Shown: piece after piece, positions 33,802 to 55,734 of the stretch | Layout: each line of letters begins with the position of its first letter | Numbering within the stretch: the stretch's first letter is position 1 | Assembly (NCBI RefSeq): GCF_014196125.1 | Contig: NZ_JACIDA010000001.1 | Span: forward strand, 310,001-374,000 | DNA: 64,000 bases | Source of the DNA: Brevundimonas mediterranea | GTDB lineage: Bacteria; Pseudomonadota; Alphaproteobacteria; Caulobacterales; Caulobacteraceae | Direction: 5' to 3' | Notes under the pieces: model-generated | What the model was told of the DNA's origin: nothing | Databases searched by the model: none | What the model saw: the letters and a program-made list of their open reading frames with translations, nothing else | Position numbers and translations under genes: made by a program

Positions 33802-33918
33802 ATTCACCGTTACGCTTCCTAGATCAGGGGAACTCCGGCTGAGGCGTGACGTTCGTTCTGCTTGGACGACGCGACGCCCGCCGGGGCTTCGGGGCTGAGG
33901 CGGGACGGAACGGCTGAC

Positions 33919-36081
33919 ATGAATGCTCGCTTCGAGCCCGATACGCGGGCGGCGTCGGATGTGGCGCGTTTCAGGGAGACCCGGGCCGCCATGCCCGCCC
34001 TGGCCGACGGCCTTTCGCCCGAGGACCTGTCGGCCCAGTCCATGCCGGATTGCAGTCCCGGCAAATGGCACCTGGCCCACACCAGCTGGTTCTTCGAGGC
34101 GATGATCCTGTCGGCCGATCCGGACTACCAGCCGGTCGATCCGCGATTCCAACAGCTGTTCAACTCCTACTACGAGGCCCTGGGCGAACGGGTGCCCCGG
34201 CCCCATCGCGGCCTGATGACCCGCCCCTCGGTGGACGAGGTCCTGACTTATCGCCGCGAAATCGACCGGCGCATGGCCGCCTGGCTGGCCTCGGGTCCGT
34301 CCAGCGGTCAGCAACTCTACCTGTTCGAACTGGGCCTGCACCACGACCAGCAGCACCAGGAGCTGTTCCTGATGGATCTGCTGAACCTGATGTCGCGCTC
34401 GCCGCTGGACCCCGCCGCCTATGCGGTCGAGCCGCGTCAGGCGCCGCTGGAGGCCCCGCGCGGCGGCGGCGTCGCCTTCGACGGCGGCCTGGTCTCAATC
34501 GGCCACGACGGCGCCGGTTTCGCCTTCGACAACGAGGGCCCGTCGCACCGCGTCTGGCTCGAGCCCTTCGCCCTGGCCGCCGACCTCGTGACCAACGGCG
34601 ACTGGCTGGGCTTCATCGCCGACGGCGGCTACGCCCGACCCGAGCTGTGGCTGTCCGACGGCTGGGCGACGGTGAAGGCCGAAGGCTGGACCGCGCCGCT
34701 CTACTGGCGCCGCGACGGCGACGATTGGACCGTCCTGAGCCTGACCGGTCGCGCCCCCGTCGATCCCGCCGCGCCGGTGCGTCATGTCAGCTTCTACGAG
34801 GCCGACGCCTATGCCCGCTGGGCCGGCAAACGCCTGCCGTCCGAGGCGGAATGGGAGCACGCCGCGACCTCGGCGCCCGACGCCTTCTCCAACCTGTCCG
34901 GCGAAGTCTGGCAGTGGACGTCAAGCGCCTACGCGCCATACCCCGGCTTCCAGCCGACGCCGGGCACGGCGGCCGAGTACAACGGCAAGTTCATGGCCAA
35001 TCAAATGGTCCTGCGCGGCGGCGCCTTCGCCACGCCCCCCGGCCATGACCGCATCACCTATCGCAACTTCTTCTACCCCCAACAGAGGTGGGCCTTCATG
35101 GGTTTGAGACTGGCCGAAGACGCCCCGCACGAGCGCAAGGTGTACCCCGAGGACGACGCCCAGACCGCCGCCTTCCGGCGTGATCTGGTCCAGGGCCTGT
35201 CGCGCGGCCAGAAGGCCGTGCCGCCCAAATGGTTCTACGACGCCGAGGGCTCGCGCCTGTTCGAAGAGATCACCGCCCTGCCGGAATATTATCCGACCCG
35301 TCAGGAGACGGCCCTGTTGCGCGACCGCGCCGCCGCCCTGACCGCCGACTTCGGCCCCGACGCCGTCCTGGTGGAGTTCGGATCGGGCGCCAGCGAAAAG
35401 ACCCGCATCCTGCTGGACGCGGCGCCCGACCTCGGCGCCTATGTGCCGCTGGACATCAGCGAGACGGCCCTGCTGGACGCCGCGACCCGCCTCCGCGCCG
35501 ACTATCCCGGCCTGCGGGTCCAGCCGGTGCTCGGCGACTTCGAACATCTGGCGCCCCTGCCGGACGATTTGCCGCACGGCCGGCGCATCGGTTTCTTCCC
35601 CGGTTCGACCATCGGCAATCTGGAGCCCGAGGAGGCGGTGCGGTTCCTGGCCTCGGCGCGCCGGATGTTGGGGGAGGGGGCGCTGTTCATTCTGGGCGTC
35701 GATCTGGTCAAGGATCCCGCGACCCTGGTCGCCGCCTATGACGACAGTCAGGGCGTCACCGCCGCCTTCAACCTGAACCTCCTTGTCCGCGCCAACGCCG
35801 AACTGGACGCCGATTTCGACCTCGACGCCTTCGCCCACCGCGCCGTCTGGAACCCGGATCAGTCCCGAATGGAGATGCACCTCCAGGCCACACGCCAAAC
35901 CACCGCCCGCGTCGGCGACAGCGCCTTCAGCTTCATGGCCGGAGAGACCATCCACACCGAAAGCTCGCGCAAGTTCACGCAGGATTCGGTCGCCGCACTG
36001 GCCAAGGAGTCCGGCTGGTCCATGGCCGGTTTCGAGGTTTCGCCCGAACCCCGCGTCGCCCTGGCCTTGTTGCGAGGGTAA
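33919..36081 (+). CDS. egtBD: Fused ergothioneine enzyme: EgtB sulfoxide synthase + EgtD histidine methyltransferase
   Basis: One 720-residue chain combines two ergothioneine biosynthesis steps. Residues about 15-405 are EgtB: a DinB-like helical domain with the iron ligands H51 (KWHLAHTSWFFE) and H142-x3-H146-x-E148 (LHHDQQHQE), then a formylglycine-generating-enzyme-like domain (GEVWQWTSSAYAPYPGF, QMVLRGGAFATPPGHDRITYRNFF, RWAFMGLRLA). Residues about 415-720 are EgtD: AVPPKWFYDAEGSRLFEEIT, SAM motif EFGSGASEKTRILLD, FFPGSTIGNLEPEEA, AFNLNLLVRANAELDADFD and HTESSRKFT. EgtD trimethylates histidine to hercynine and EgtB adds the sulfur. The order is the reverse of fungal Egt1. A TTG-started extension to 33862 is possible. 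The frame is uninterrupted across the junction. Confidence 0.95.
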   Translation: MNARFEPDTRAASDVARFRETRAAMPALADGLSPEDLSAQSMPDCSPGKWHLAHTSWFFEAMILSADPDYQPVDPRFQQLFNSYYEALGERVPRPHRGLMTRPSVDEVLTYRREIDRRMAAWLASGPSSGQQLYLFELGLHHDQQHQELFLMDLLNLMSRSPLDPAAYAVEPRQAPLEAPRGGGVAFDGGLVSIGHDGAGFAFDNEGPSHRVWLEPFALAADLVTNGDWLGFIADGGYARPELWLSDGWATVKAEGWTAPLYWRRDGDDWTVLSLTGRAPVDPAAPVRHVSFYEADAYARWAGKRLPSEAEWEHAATSAPDAFSNLSGEVWQWTSSAYAPYPGFQPTPGTAAEYNGKFMANQMVLRGGAFATPPGHDRITYRNFFYPQQRWAFMGLRLAEDAPHERKVYPEDDAQTAAFRRDLVQGLSRGQKAVPPKWFYDAEGSRLFEEITALPEYYPTRQETALLRDRAAALTADFGPDAVLVEFGSGASEKTRILLDAAPDLGAYVPLDISETALLDAATRLRADYPGLRVQPVLGDFEHLAPLPDDLPHGRRIGFFPGSTIGNLEPEEAVRFLASARRMLGEGALFILGVDLVKDPATLVAAYDDSQGVTAAFNLNLLVRANAELDADFDLDAFAHRAVWNPDQSRMEMHLQATRQTTARVGDSAFSFMAGETIHTESSRKFTQDSVAALAKESGWSMAGFEVSPEPRVALALLRG

Positions 36082-36133
36082 AACCCCGGGGCGAGCCTTC
36101 GCCAGAGCCGACAACGCCTGCAGTCGCGATCTG

Positions 36134-36190
36134 AACGTCGGCTTTCTGGCGACGGGTCAATTTCGCTTCGCGACCCGTTGCGGACATTGG
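36134..36190 (+). repeat. Interspersed repeat, partial copy A
   Basis: AACGTCGGCTTTCTGG..CGACGGGTC and CGACCCGTTGCGGACATT are the two ends of the repeat family found four more times to 38330. The middle is shorter here. The ends are partly complementary (GTC-GC .. GCGGAC), giving a hairpin-like unit. Confidence 0.6.
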
Positions 36191-36212
36191 CTCCCGGTCA
36201 CAAGATGATCCA

Positions 36213-36674
36213 ATGGAAGATTGTTGCTGCCGCTCCTTGCCGAACCTTGCTGTCGTTCCGATGGGCGGAGACGGGCAAGACGATCGGGTGTTCGCTACGC
36301 TGAACAACATTCGTGACCACAGCACCGGACTTTGGTGGCTCTACCTGTCAAAGTGCCGCGCCTGTGAGCAGGAATGGCTCTTCGCTCAAGATGACCGCAT
36401 CTATGACAACTTCTACCTCAAGCGGCTGGACCTGGCCGAGGCCTACCACTTACTTGAGGGCGGCCATTGGCCTGATGATTTCATCTCTTACGAGCGCGTT
36501 TTGCGGCTGGGCAGGACGCTTAGTCAGGCATGGACATTTCTCGATCCTCGGTCACCGGCGCTCGTCGCGACGGCAGAGGACTTGAGGAAAGAGCGACCTG
36601 ACATCACCGTTGAGGAGATTGCTCATTTACTCGCCATCGAGCCGAAAGCGGCGGATCGGGTCTTGGGGAGCTAA
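36213..36674 (+). CDS. Orphan protein with CxxC motif
   Basis: A 153-residue soluble protein of no recognised family. Cysteines cluster at the start (EDCCCRS) and in SKCRACEQEW, which could bind zinc. LWWLYLSKCRACEQEWLFAQDDRIYDNFYLKRL is its most protein-like segment. A methionine at residue 17 (MGGDGQ) is an alternative start. Its GC content is lower than that of the flanking housekeeping genes. Its TAA stop is also the first bases of repeat copy B. It lies in an island of small orphan genes and may be horizontally acquired. Confidence 0.65.
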   Translation: MEDCCCRSLPNLAVVPMGGDGQDDRVFATLNNIRDHSTGLWWLYLSKCRACEQEWLFAQDDRIYDNFYLKRLDLAEAYHLLEGGHWPDDFISYERVLRLGRTLSQAWTFLDPRSPALVATAEDLRKERPDITVEEIAHLLAIEPKAADRVLGS

Positions 36675-36785
36675 CGTCCGTTCCCACCCCTAGCTGACGT
36701 CGACCGCGACCGCTTTCCGGCCTTGAGGCCAACGTCCGTTTTCGGCGTTAAAGATCAGGATCGAAACCGACCCATTTGCGACATG
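36673..36785 (+). repeat. Interspersed repeat, copy B
   Basis: About 113 bases starting inside the TAA stop of the preceding gene: AACGTCCGTTCCCACCCC, CGACCGCGACCGCTTTC, AACGTCCGTTTTCGGC, then CGACCCATTTGCGACAT. It matches copy D almost throughout. Confidence 0.75.
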
Positions 36786-36809
36786 CAGGACCCGAGATAA
36801 ACTGCTCTC

Positions 36810-37103
36810 ATGACTATCCGCACGGTATCGCCCTATCCCGAGATTTTTTGCGACTTCAATGCCCGCGTGACTGAGCGAGGCTACCGTCCAACTAATGGCA
36901 CGGTTCGGGATCTAGCTGCCTTGGGGCTTATACTGGACAGCGCCGTTGACCGCAGATTTGTCTTGGTCTCCGAAGATGCGAATGAACAAGGTAAGCCTGA
37001 CGATATAATGCACGACGGCACCGTCGTTGTGGATCCCGCTTTCGGCATCCTATTGGAAGCAGATGAAACGGGCTTCTATTGGCGGTCCGAACTTCGAAGC
37101 TGA
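36810..37103 (+). CDS. Orphan small protein
   Basis: A 97-residue protein of unknown function (MTIRTVSPYPEIFCDFNARVTERGY...). It reads as a compact alpha/beta protein with the ILDSAVDRRFVLVSEDAN and DPAFGILLEADETGFYWR strands, and no signal or membrane segment. Only a weak ribosome-binding GAGA precedes it. Low-GC codon use sets it apart from the flanking core genes. The stop overlaps repeat copy C. Confidence 0.65.
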   Translation: MTIRTVSPYPEIFCDFNARVTERGYRPTNGTVRDLAALGLILDSAVDRRFVLVSEDANEQGKPDDIMHDGTVVVDPAFGILLEADETGFYWRSELRS

Positions 37104-37220
37104 AGTCCGTTTTCCACCCGAAGCTGAACCTTCCGGCGTCCGCTGATGGACCAAACCCGTCAACGTCCGGTTCCGGCCTCAATGCCTATTTCGCAAACCG
37201 ACCCGTTGCGGACATTGAGC
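37103..37220 (+). repeat. Interspersed repeat, copy C
   Basis: Starts at the TGA of the preceding gene with AGTCCGTTTTCCACCC, continues with AACGTCCGGTTCCGGCC and ends CGACCCGTTGCGGACATTGAGC. It is a diverged member of the same family as B and D. Confidence 0.7.
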
Positions 37221-37240
37221 CGCTGCCACATGATCCGAAG

Positions 37241-37573
37241 ATGAAACACTGGTCTGCCGCTGCATTGATAATGTTGCTCGGCGGTTGTTTGCCGAATGAG
37301 AAGCCGCCCCCAATCGCGGAAGGGATGGAAGTCTCAATCGCCAACGAAGAGTGGCCGCCTCGCCTCGCACAGAGGTTTCCGCTCGGAAGCTCGGAAGCCG
37401 AACTGGTCACCACGTTGAGTTCCCAGGGCTTCATCATCGATCAATCGAAACGGACAGCCAAAGCGGAATGGTCCAGTGGGGTATGCAGAAACGAACTTGA
37501 TGTGGTTTGGCAGACTGACGATGTGGGCCAGTTGGTGAGCGTCGGCGGACGCTATTTCCCCGTTTGCCCCTAA
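37241..37573 (+). CDS. Small lipoprotein, orphan
   Basis: A 110-residue protein with a lipoprotein signal: KHWSAAALIMLLGGC places the acylated cysteine near residue 16. The mature part has LAQRFPLGSSEAELVTTLSSQGF, a pattern seen in small SmpA/BamE-like or DUF-type lipoproteins that sense start-of-helix G-S motifs, and ends GQLVSVGGRYFPVCP with a cysteine. No firm family assignment is possible. The stop overlaps repeat copy D. Confidence 0.7.
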   Translation: MKHWSAAALIMLLGGCLPNEKPPPIAEGMEVSIANEEWPPRLAQRFPLGSSEAELVTTLSSQGFIIDQSKRTAKAEWSSGVCRNELDVVWQTDDVGQLVSVGGRYFPVCP

Positions 37574-37683
37574 GTCCGCTCCCCACCCTTGGCAGACATC
37601 GACCGCGACCGTTTTCTGGCTTGGAGGCCTACGTCCACTTTCGGCTGTGAAGCCCAGGACTGCAATCGACCCATTGCAGACCC
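37572..37683 (+). repeat. Interspersed repeat, copy D
   Basis: Begins in the TAA of the lipoprotein gene (AAGTCCGCTCCCCACCC), then CGACCGCGACCGTTTTC, TACGTCCACTTTCGGC and CGACCCATTGCAGAC. It is the closest partner of copy B. Confidence 0.75.
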
Positions 37684-37745
37684 TGGCGAGATCGCGTTCG
37701 ATCCGATTTACCGGTAACGTCCCTACTGGATGGCAAGCCTCGACC

Positions 37746-38228
37746 ATGCTCAGAAGCCCCGCTTTAGCGACAAGGATGCATCACTTCAGCATGGGCCTTG
37801 CGCCTGTCGCAGCCGCCTTGCTAGTCGCGGGATGCTCCACGGCGCCCCAAAACTATCGGCTTGAAGCCGAGATCGGAGATCCCTTGGGGTTTCCACAGGG
37901 TGCCACCGCCACCAGAGGGGTGTCACGCTGGACAATAGAGCGTCGTGTTTATGCGCTCGGCCAAACCCAGCGCGTCCTACTATCGGCGGAAGACTCACTC
38001 GCCTTGGACACCGCCGTCGCGGACCCTTCTCTATATGATAGACCGGCGTCTCGAAGTGGCGAGGAGTGCGTAGACACGCCTTCAATCGCGCTGGATGTCA
38101 CCGTCGACGGTCCGCCGCGACGCCTGACCTTGGAATGTGAAACATCTCCGGGTCTCGAGGCCGTGCTGCGCATTCTGTTCGACTGGCCCAACCCGGCCAG
38201 CGCGACAGGTGAGCGCATTGGGGACTAG
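37746..38228 (+). CDS. Small lipoprotein, orphan
   Basis: A 160-residue lipoprotein: GLAPVAAALLVAGC ends the signal with the acylated cysteine. The start at 37746 is one of three candidates (37776 and 37791 would only shorten the signal). The mature chain (RVYALGQTQRVLLSAEDSLALDTAVADPSLYDRPA) has a cysteine in GEECVDTP and another in LECETSPG that could form a disulfide. No known family was recognised. It is the last gene of the orphan island. Confidence 0.65.
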   Translation: MLRSPALATRMHHFSMGLAPVAAALLVAGCSTAPQNYRLEAEIGDPLGFPQGATATRGVSRWTIERRVYALGQTQRVLLSAEDSLALDTAVADPSLYDRPASRSGEECVDTPSIALDVTVDGPPRRLTLECETSPGLEAVLRILFDWPNPASATGERIGD

Positions 38229-38275
38229 CCCAGCTTCTACAGCCATTGGTTAGACCGGCCACCGAGGGCTATCGT

Positions 38276-38330
38276 CAACGTCCGCTTCCCACCCCTCGCA
38301 GACGATCACCACGTCCGCTTTCGGCGACGG
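38276..38330 (+). repeat. Interspersed repeat, partial copy E
   Basis: AACGTCCGCTTCCCACCCCTCGCAGAC then ACGTCCGCTTTCGGC, followed by a short GGCGAC tandem (38325-38342). Only the first half of the family unit is present. Confidence 0.65.
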
Positions 38331-38414
38331 CGACGGCGACGGCGCCGTCCGGCCTTTGCCGGTGTCGGTTTATCCTGGTCTTTTCCTGGCTTTTCCGAGG
38401 ATGACCGGGAACAG

Positions 38415-38469: not shown

Positions 38470-38691
38470 TCACTCGGCTTCGTTAGTCGCCGCGTCCTTC
38501 TTCGGCCCGTGCGAAGCCTCGCCGCCCTTGCGTCCGGCTTGGGCGGCCAGACTGCGATCCTGGGAGAAGCTTCTCTTTTCGCTGGGAACGCTGGCGCCCC
38601 CTTTGCGCGCGATTTCGCGCTGCCGTTCCGGATCCATCGAGGCGAAGCCTCGCTTGGAAACGCCGGAGGGTCGCGAGGGTTGGCTGTCCAT
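38470..38691 (-). CDS. KGG-motif general stress protein (YciG/con-10 type)
   Basis: A 73-residue hydrophilic protein containing two KGG repeats: RGFASMDPERQREIARKGGASVP and SLAAQAGRKGGEASHG. This is the stress-induced protein family of YciG and fungal conidiation protein 10, induced in stationary phase or osmotic stress. It is likely disordered. A terminator follows on the same strand. Confidence 0.88.
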   Translation of the reverse strand: MDSQPSRPSGVSKRGFASMDPERQREIARKGGASVPSEKRSFSQDRSLAAQAGRKGGEASHGPKKDAATNEAE

Positions 38692-55499: not shown

Positions 55500-55576
55500 T
55501 GGCGCGAGTGACGGGGCTCGAACCCGCGACCTCCGGCGTGACAGGCCGGCACTCTAACCAACTGAGCTACACCCGC
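55500..55576 (-). tRNA. tRNA-Asp (GTC), copy 1
   Basis: On the minus strand: acceptor GCGGGTG/CACTCGC, D-loop AGCTCAGTTGGTTAGAGT, anticodon stem-loop CCGGC-CTGTCAC-GCCGG with anticodon GTC, T-arm CGGGTTCGAGCCCCG and encoded CCA. 77 bases. Confidence 0.97.
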
Positions 55577-55657
55577 GTATCAGGTCGAAACTTTTGAGTT
55601 GTTTCGAAAACTATGAAGGGAAGGCGGTAGCGCCACTCTGTCTATTTCTAGAAAGAG

Positions 55658-55734
55658 TGGCGCGAGTGACGGGGCTCGAACCCGCGACCTCCGGCGTGAC
55701 AGGCCGGCACTCTAACCAACTGAGCTACACCCGC
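55658..55734 (-). tRNA. tRNA-Asp (GTC), copy 2
   Basis: Identical to the copy at 55500-55576 over all 77 bases, same strand, 81 bases upstream. The pair is a tandem duplication and is probably co-transcribed. Confidence 0.97.

Follow-up and report, generated by a model that had tools for sequence, protein, structure and literature searches.

A probable orphan array of gene cassettes from an integron-like system in Brevundimonas mediterranea

Among the devices with which bacteria capture and shuffle single genes, integrons are the best known, and the R boxes of their attC sites follow the consensus RYYYAAC/GTTRRRY. Small tyrosine recombinases of the FimB/FimE type, about 200 amino acids (aa) long, act as DNA invertases. 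The plan of attC has been outlined as R'', L'', L' and R' with an unpaired central spacer and a variable terminal structure (PMC2727003), simple tyrosine recombinases are described as usually combining a core-binding and a catalytic domain (PMC8138268), and integron surveys are reported to require PF00589, an IntI-specific domain and attC models (PMC9668308). Here we describe an island of four small genes separated by copies of a repeat, R, in a stretch of 64,000 nucleotides (nt) of Brevundimonas mediterranea (G000:C1:310001-374000 of a 3.41-Mb genome), referred to below as the window. Our reading is that the island is probably an orphan array, made up of mobile gene cassettes that belong to an integron-like system. 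The anatomy of the array, its presence or absence between relatives, the exchange of cassettes at the sites, the adjacency of a tyrosine recombinase gene (Int) in other genomes and the covariation of the inner arms of R are supported by the comparisons reported here. New relative to the initial annotation of this DNA are the division of the repeat into two halves, the recombinase with its wide spread, and the way in which the inner arms of the repeat complement each other.

Anatomy and spread of the arrays

The initial annotation had placed five copies of a repeat of about 115 base pairs (bp) around the four genes, with copies B, C and D starting at stop codons, partial copy A lying 53 nt after the preceding stop and a last partial copy 48 nt after the final gene. 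All five copies were recovered at these places, but R is not one unit: comparison of copies within the window and the rest of the genome resolved it into a 5' half, E, and a 3' half, S. Half E (approximately AATGTCCGCTTTCCACCCATTGCGGACATT) overlaps or starts at the stop codon of the gene before it, and half S ends in CGACCCATTGCGGACATT, about 25 nt ahead of the next start codon. The resulting order is S-gene-R-gene-...-gene-E. An array built of S-gene-E units predicts a first copy with the S half only and a last copy with the E half only, as was found: copy A is S only, B to D are E+S and the last is E only. The array comprises the following features.

36134..36190, + strand: S half-site (array start), copy A, upstream of gene 1, with CGACCCGTTGCGGACATT at 36171-36188
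36213..36674, + strand: cassette gene 1, 153 aa, no Pfam/NCBIfam family over cut-off
36671..36796, + strand: composite site R (E+S), copy B, starting at the gene 1 TAA (36672-36674)
36810..37103, + strand: cassette gene 2, 97 aa, no Pfam/NCBIfam family
37100..37225, + strand: composite site R (E+S), copy C, starting at the gene 2 TGA (37101-37103)
37241..37573, + strand: cassette gene 3, 110 aa, lipoprotein-like, signal LLGGC (translation read by eye)
37570..37695, + strand: composite site R (E+S), copy D, starting at the gene 3 TAA (37571-37573)
37746..38228, + strand: cassette gene 4, 160 aa, lipoprotein-like, signal LVAGC (read by eye), no Pfam/NCBIfam family
38276..38344, + strand: E half-site (array end), beginning 48 nt past gene 4

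The S part of copy A starts at 36134, 53 nt past the stop of egtBD. The two lipoprotein genes and the lower GC content noted at first are both borne out, the former as the lipoprotein-like genes 3 and 4 and the latter as 0.590 in the island versus 0.654 in the window, a value equalled or undercut in 2 of 309 overlapping windows of the same length. Gene 3 has a distant relative (28% identity, E 1e-7) that is itself a cassette gene in an S. daechungensis array (L113:3226-3603:-). A search of Rfam gave a single match beside the island, with an E-value of 0.85 and far under the gathering score. A short CGGCGA tandem run occupies 38321-38344, directly past the last E half.

Scored with a model made from the same copies, the window sites reached 41-103 bits, whereas none of 50 Markov-shuffled windows exceeded 10.2 bits. 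With a model made from other genomes only, four of the five sites scored 17-23 bits, above the 15.7 bits that the shuffled windows reached at most, and copy B only 9.7 bits. Elsewhere in the same genome the S...E order recurs downstream of recG (L008), is less regular upstream of an hslU-like open reading frame (ORF; L009), and takes the form of one single-gene S-gene-E unit at L028. Hairpin-like halves at both ends of such single units would also suit a non-autonomous insertion element carrying passenger genes, of the repetitive extragenic palindrome (REP/RAYT), IS200/IS605-like or miniature inverted-repeat transposable element (MITE) kind; this explanation is highly improbable, given that the Y1 transposase (PF01797), the only transposase family searched, was found in 0 of 12 genomes versus 5 of 14 controls.

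In R, the outer arms read GTCCGC/GCGGAC and the spacers TTTCCACCC and TTTCGACCC; the inner arms are complementary to each other, and the tip is variable. This layout, in which an outer arm, a spacer and an inner arm lead to the tip and recur beyond it in reverse order, corresponds to the attC plan as outlined in PMC2727003. The likeness to an integron cassette array with a different repeat, noted initially, is supported. Among 280 S-like stretches, a set that allows up to four mismatches and hence includes chance matches, TANNNT peaks at +12 (22 cases; next 7), 16 bp past a -35-like TTGCGG, and ATG is most frequent at +25 (29 cases), followed by +24 (11). This suggests that the S half would provide each cassette with a -35 box and a start without a leader.

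The exact pattern of the two outer blocks was found in 30 stretches of named genome records, belonging to Sphingomonas, Sphingomicrobium, Sphingosinicella, Allosphingosinicella, Altererythrobacter and Brevundimonas, together with one metagenome-assembled genome labelled Rhizobium and one labelled only Alphaproteobacteria. A model of 31 copies (E<=0.1, at most 150 candidates scored per genome) gave 4 hits in G099 and 17 to 113 in the others of 12 genomes, which had been chosen for copies already known and of which G031 and G448 (Brevundimonas sp. Root608) appear to be one genome. At least one R hit at E<=0.001 was present in 55 of the 61 genomes of the genus, and an 18-base S pattern with at most one mismatch occurred in 11 of 385 genomes of the class, three of them the present genome and congeners.

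The initial annotation had set random scatter of the copies relative to genes against its reading, and no such scatter was seen. Hits of R are clustered, as in S. rhizophila with nine in about 3 kb, all on one strand, and several arrays open with an S-only and close with an E-only hit (e.g. G447b and G446c; L150, L151 and L152). Half-hits within arrays occur as well, and may stand for sites whose diverged parts escape the profile. In 104 intervals between successive same-strand sites, genes were approximated by the longest ORF, which is a crude proxy where DNA is GC-rich; it lay on the same strand in 61, on the opposite strand in 42 and was lacking in one. Among the 61 same-strand ORFs, the start lies 18-27 nt past the site in 26, and the stop falls between -6 and +3 nt relative to the following site in 23; only 2 of the 42 opposite-strand ORFs start at the mirrored distance. 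Genes picked with a score that favours this geometry were excluded from the evidence for it. Of 64 cassette proteins picked in that way, one fits one PADLOC model, and 16 Pfam families are represented by one member each; judged by these matches, the cassette functions appear mostly unassigned.

Cassette exchange and the associated recombinase

The array lies between two genes that are neighbours in related genomes.

33862..36081, + strand: left flank, egtB-egtD fusion
38470..38691, - strand: right flank, KGG stress-protein gene, BLAST neighbour of egtBD in 29/29 congeneric loci examined

A copy of egtBD is present in 57 of the 61 genomes of the genus, the present one included, and 30 loci (this one and 29 congeneric) were compared. 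The possibility that the four genes are fixed in relatives did not materialise: BLAST at E<=1e-3 found no trace of the island between egtBD and the KGG gene in any of the 29 congeneric loci, in all of which the KGG gene follows next after egtBD. The gap between the two is mostly about 100-220 bp long, and about 0.4-0.6 kb in L057 and L059. One genome (G011, locus L035) carries there another insertion of about 1.2 kb, in which no R, S or E site was seen and whose ORFs we take, by eye, to be ParD-like and methionine-aminopeptidase-like; the gap is a possible insertion hot spot. In the window egtB and egtD form one ORF of 739 aa, and in several congeners (G003, G023, G035, G041) two ORFs. Another intergenic inverted repeat, with GTCATCCTAGGCCTTGTGCCTAGGATCC-like arms and resembling a MITE or an intergenic repeat unit (IRU), sits beside arrays or at the empty site (L008:2606-2732, L033 in the egtBD-KGG gap, and L207).

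At recG, the next gene in six of ten relatives is the one that follows the array in the present genome, and in three (G032, G019, G008) it is another gene. At that position G011 carries an array too: the flanks of the two genomes are 89.6% identical up to the end of S (2823 in the present genome) and again from E (4620), and between them lie three cassettes in the present genome and two different ones in G011.

All-versus-all BLAST of the arrays yielded 23 pairs ending at sites, a number that includes repeats of one pair in overlapping loci and the Int regions themselves. Six pairs of cassettes, each pair from a single genome, were compared at the level of individual bases. Four are 97-98% identical, namely two in G012 (L132/L130 and L132/L127), one inverted in S. 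daechungensis (L114) and one in S. cremea (L117/L121), and two from S. rhizophila are 89-90% identical. In G012, two adjacent cassettes of L132 (at about 2.11 Mb) are copied in L130 (about 0.34 Mb) and L127 (about 2.68 Mb). Homology ends inside R, breaking off near CGACCCA where the end falls in S and near TTTCCACCC where it falls in E; single-core junctions are seen in L127 and L111.

These observations bear on the idea that R is a non-mobile regulatory repeat, a promoter plus terminator around fast-evolving genes, with arrays altered by homologous recombination between repeats. The promoter-like -35 and -10 peak in S and the exact fit of R, in many intervals, between a stop codon and the following start codon would suit it. 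Insertion between conserved neighbours, nearly identical cassettes that lie far apart and break off in a short spacer, and a dedicated recombinase adjoining the arrays speak against it, and we regard it as unlikely.

The recombinase genes found at arrays encode PF00589 proteins of about 200 aa; five aligned Int sequences are 62-74% identical to the first. In the genus, an Int profile detected full-length genes in 12 of 61 genomes (16 copies above 300 bits, one with a stop) and fragments in seven further genomes, all remaining hits scoring at most 63 bits, as Xer-type proteins do. Fragmented Int genes lie at G008:C2:16522-16916, G011:C12:210443, G038:C1:925328 and G050:C3:221740; Int seems to have been lost repeatedly among congeners. 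The egtBD closest to that of the window is held by G008, one of the genomes with an Int fragment. In Pseudomonadota, Int was found in 62 of 398 genomes and 49 of 212 genera (E<=1e-40, fragments counted), and 86 plasmid records match it at 60-80% identity, lower matches including other recombinases.

An E or R site lies convergently within 60 bp of the Int end in 12 of 19 full-length copies, a proximity shared by 0.7% of positions drawn at random from these loci. In all 12 adjacent cases the array reads towards Int, and the site is 3-36 bp from the Int end in 11 and overlaps it by 3 bp in one. A motif resembling the outer arm (at most two mismatches) follows within 140 nt of the Int stop in 27 of 50 genes, mostly 27-65 nt past it, versus 366 of 3000 random windows. 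In L108, L114 and L116 (S. rhizophila, S. daechungensis) two arrays converge on Int, with E halves on both sides, and G446 holds two Int regions bracketed by E halves that are 85% identical over 1017 bp. Host XerC/XerD could in principle move the cassettes instead of Int, as with the pdif modules of Acinetobacter plasmids: the present genome has arrays, no Int and XerC/D-like proteins, and the sites show a dif-like plan with a 6-bp spacer. The presence of Int at array ends far above chance, and arms GTCCGC/GCGGAC unlike the pdif arms ATTTCGTATAA/TTATGTTAATT given in PMC13141974, make this quite unlikely, even more so than the regulatory repeat.

Int belongs to the tyrosine recombinase superfamily, with PF00589 scores of 71 and 60 bits and the motifs R, K, HxxR, H and Y of a catalytic domain. 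In 43 sequences R50, K78, H147, R150 and H173 are invariant and Y182 is present in at least 90%. The length of the protein would leave little room for a separate core-binding domain. An AlphaFold model reached a predicted local distance difference test (pLDDT) score of 87 with 43 sequences and of 52 with 5; the folds nearest to it are XerA, XerH and Cre, with the integron integrase 2a3v lower in the list. Against the DNA-invertase models NF007370 and NF007371 Int scored 17.5 and 16 bits, far under cut-off. An assignment to IntI was considered and rejected: one Int scored 12 bits against TIGR02249 (cut-off 265) and the other was unlisted, the IntI-specific domain not being profiled separately. 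None of the ten array-bearing genomes has a TIGR02249 match over cut-off.

Taken together, presence and absence at two loci, duplicated cassettes that break in the repeat and a recombinase at array ends lend support to the cassette-like gene capture suggested initially. In the proposed mechanism each cassette would be an S-gene-E unit, neighbours sharing the composite, attC-like site R = E+S, and the S half would supply the cassette's own leaderless promoter. Int, encoded convergently at the E end in other genomes, would excise cassettes, presumably as circles, and reinsert them by crossover in the spacer TTTC(C/G)ACCCA, with R folding as a single strand for recombination. The present genome would have lost Int or never had it, so that its arrays would be orphans, now static or movable only in trans.

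Covariation and predicted folding of R

The inner arms of one R pair better than shuffled partners, with z 4.7 in the long form (39 distinct pairs) and 4.0 in the short form (64), a pairing reached in 0 of 2000 shuffles of each. Arms within one half showed no covariation in this set, in which the outer arms were constrained (z 1.0, 0.2, 1.7 and -0.3). When the test was repeated with free arms, on 106 of the 204 full R hits, the inner arms gave z 4.2 (long) and 3.8 (short), and arms within a half 1.6, 0.7, 1.4 and 0.1; a version with other anchors gave an inner z of 2.7 (n=35). As kinship of the sequences biases all arm tests alike, the evidence lies in the contrast between arm pairs. By this contrast the inner arms of R covary, as would be expected of a folded attC. 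RNAalifold on alignment A1 returned five outer pairs only, without covariation. Of ten copies folded as DNA, three clearly beat their shuffles and seven did not: the copies from L123 and L121 (z -5.2 and -2.6) form outer and inner stems with an unpaired central spacer and a variable tip, and the copy from L117 (z -4.5) folds as two hairpins.

It is possible, though doubtful, that the same system works by double-stranded recombination at core sites, with no single-strand folding. Each half (AATGTCCGC-TTT-CSACCC-ATT-GCGGACATT) would then be a dif- or lox-like site with a 6-bp spacer, and direct repeats would flank the cassettes. An asymmetric 6-bp spacer does lie between inverted arms in each half, crossovers occur in either half, single-core junctions exist (L127, L111), the nearest folds of Int are XerA, XerH and Cre, and most single copies, including those of the window, fold no better than shuffles. 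What argues against it is the lack of covariation between the two arms of a single core (z -0.3 to 1.7, or 0.1 to 1.6 with free arms), together with its presence between the inner arms of two cores (z 3.8-4.7), as a folded composite site predicts.

Several observations count against the reading of the island as an orphan cassette array moved by Int at folded sites. The genome itself has no Int, its best profile hit being 56 bits, at the level of Xer-like proteins. No site was detected within 60 bp of 7 of the 19 full-length Int genes, and 5 of the 19 came from stretches fetched for their arrays; among the other 14, fetched solely for Int, 9 have a site. The outer arms give z 0.3 (long) and -1.7 (short) in the constrained set and 2.5 and -1.5 with free arms, weak covariation at best, and with other anchors -0.1 in one R (n=43) and 1.2 in one cassette (n=14). 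Non-consensus letters make up 7-14% in the outer arms versus 19-34% inside; as the outer arms vary so little, covariation tests on them are weak. Copies B to D of the window are not clearly better folded than shuffles (z -0.6 to -1.7), nor are four of the seven other copies. Crossovers fall in the E spacer for some pairs and in the S spacer for others, a pattern not expected from cleavage at one fixed position. For 42 of the 104 intervals the opposite strand carries the longest ORF, and genes 1, 2 and 4 have no relative among the fetched loci, the sole comparison set for the window proteins. Verified cassette arrays are confined to alphaproteobacteria, and the whole analysis is one of sequence comparison.

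In another part of the window, at 55500-55734, two tRNA-Asp(gtc) genes lie side by side.

Comparison with known systems

Among the literature matches listed, as judged by titles and abstract openings in a set outside which preprints and most subscription journals lie, there was no such site and no such recombinase with cassette arrays. The criteria applied in integron surveys, as given in PMC9668308, would explain why the system was overlooked. If the proposed reading is true, these arrays hold a large reservoir of small orphan genes so far filed as scattered hypotheticals and could represent an overlooked route by which common environmental bacteria collect and shuffle genes. Int would then also offer a minimal recombinase, apparently without a core-binding domain, for asking what attC-type recombination needs.

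The pdif modules of Acinetobacter, which depend on XerC/XerD, are alike in their small gene modules, short recombinase sites with a 6-bp spacer and shuffling of modules. They differ in that a dedicated recombinase other than XerCD is present here, the arrays are chromosomal, the arms are different and the double site is composite; moreover, adjacent pdif sites are inverse, whereas consecutive sites here are directly oriented. With recombinases of the FimB/FimE type Int shares its length of about 200 aa and a weak similarity to NF007370/NF007371, but it lies far under the cut-off of these models and is associated with cassette arrays.

The closest likeness is to integrons and to clusters of attC sites lacking integron integrases (CALIN): a tandem succession of short ORF and site, a stop codon that overlaps the site, an attC-like site plan, a tyrosine recombinase gene at one array end, and arrays without integrase elsewhere. 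Integron cassettes generally share one orientation; here the tandem units are clear, and the longest ORF follows the strand of the sites in 61 of 104 intervals. The arrays described here resemble such CALIN-like, integrase-less clusters in the sense in which the term appears in PMC8618304. The differences concern sites, enzyme and layout. The arms of R are GTCCGC/GCGGAC instead of the RYYYAAC/GTTRRRY of attC; although the outer blocks GTCCGCTTTCCACCC and CGACCC.TTGC.GA were fixed by the search pattern and no attC detection program was run, arm-free sets likewise give GTCCGC/GCGGAC as consensus arms, with 7-14% other letters. The recombinase is apparently a much smaller enzyme, of about 200 aa, and is not IntI by TIGR02249, and the arrays may open with a lone S half and close with a lone E half. 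Finally, integron cassettes read away from the integrase gene, whereas the present arrays read towards Int; since Int faces the array from the E end, the cassettes would need promoters of their own.

If an unrelated recombinase acting on different hairpins, and present in 62 of 398 sampled Pseudomonadota genomes, works as integrons do in sphingomonads and Brevundimonas, gene-cassette shuffling arose more than once. We see about an even chance that this is a second, independently evolved integron in Pseudomonadota, with a minimal recombinase, folded sites that are attC-like but unrelated in sequence, a reversed layout and a promoter half in every site. On the comparisons made here the system appears integron-like in its working, and we do not call it an integron because IntI, the attC consensus and the layout all fail to match.

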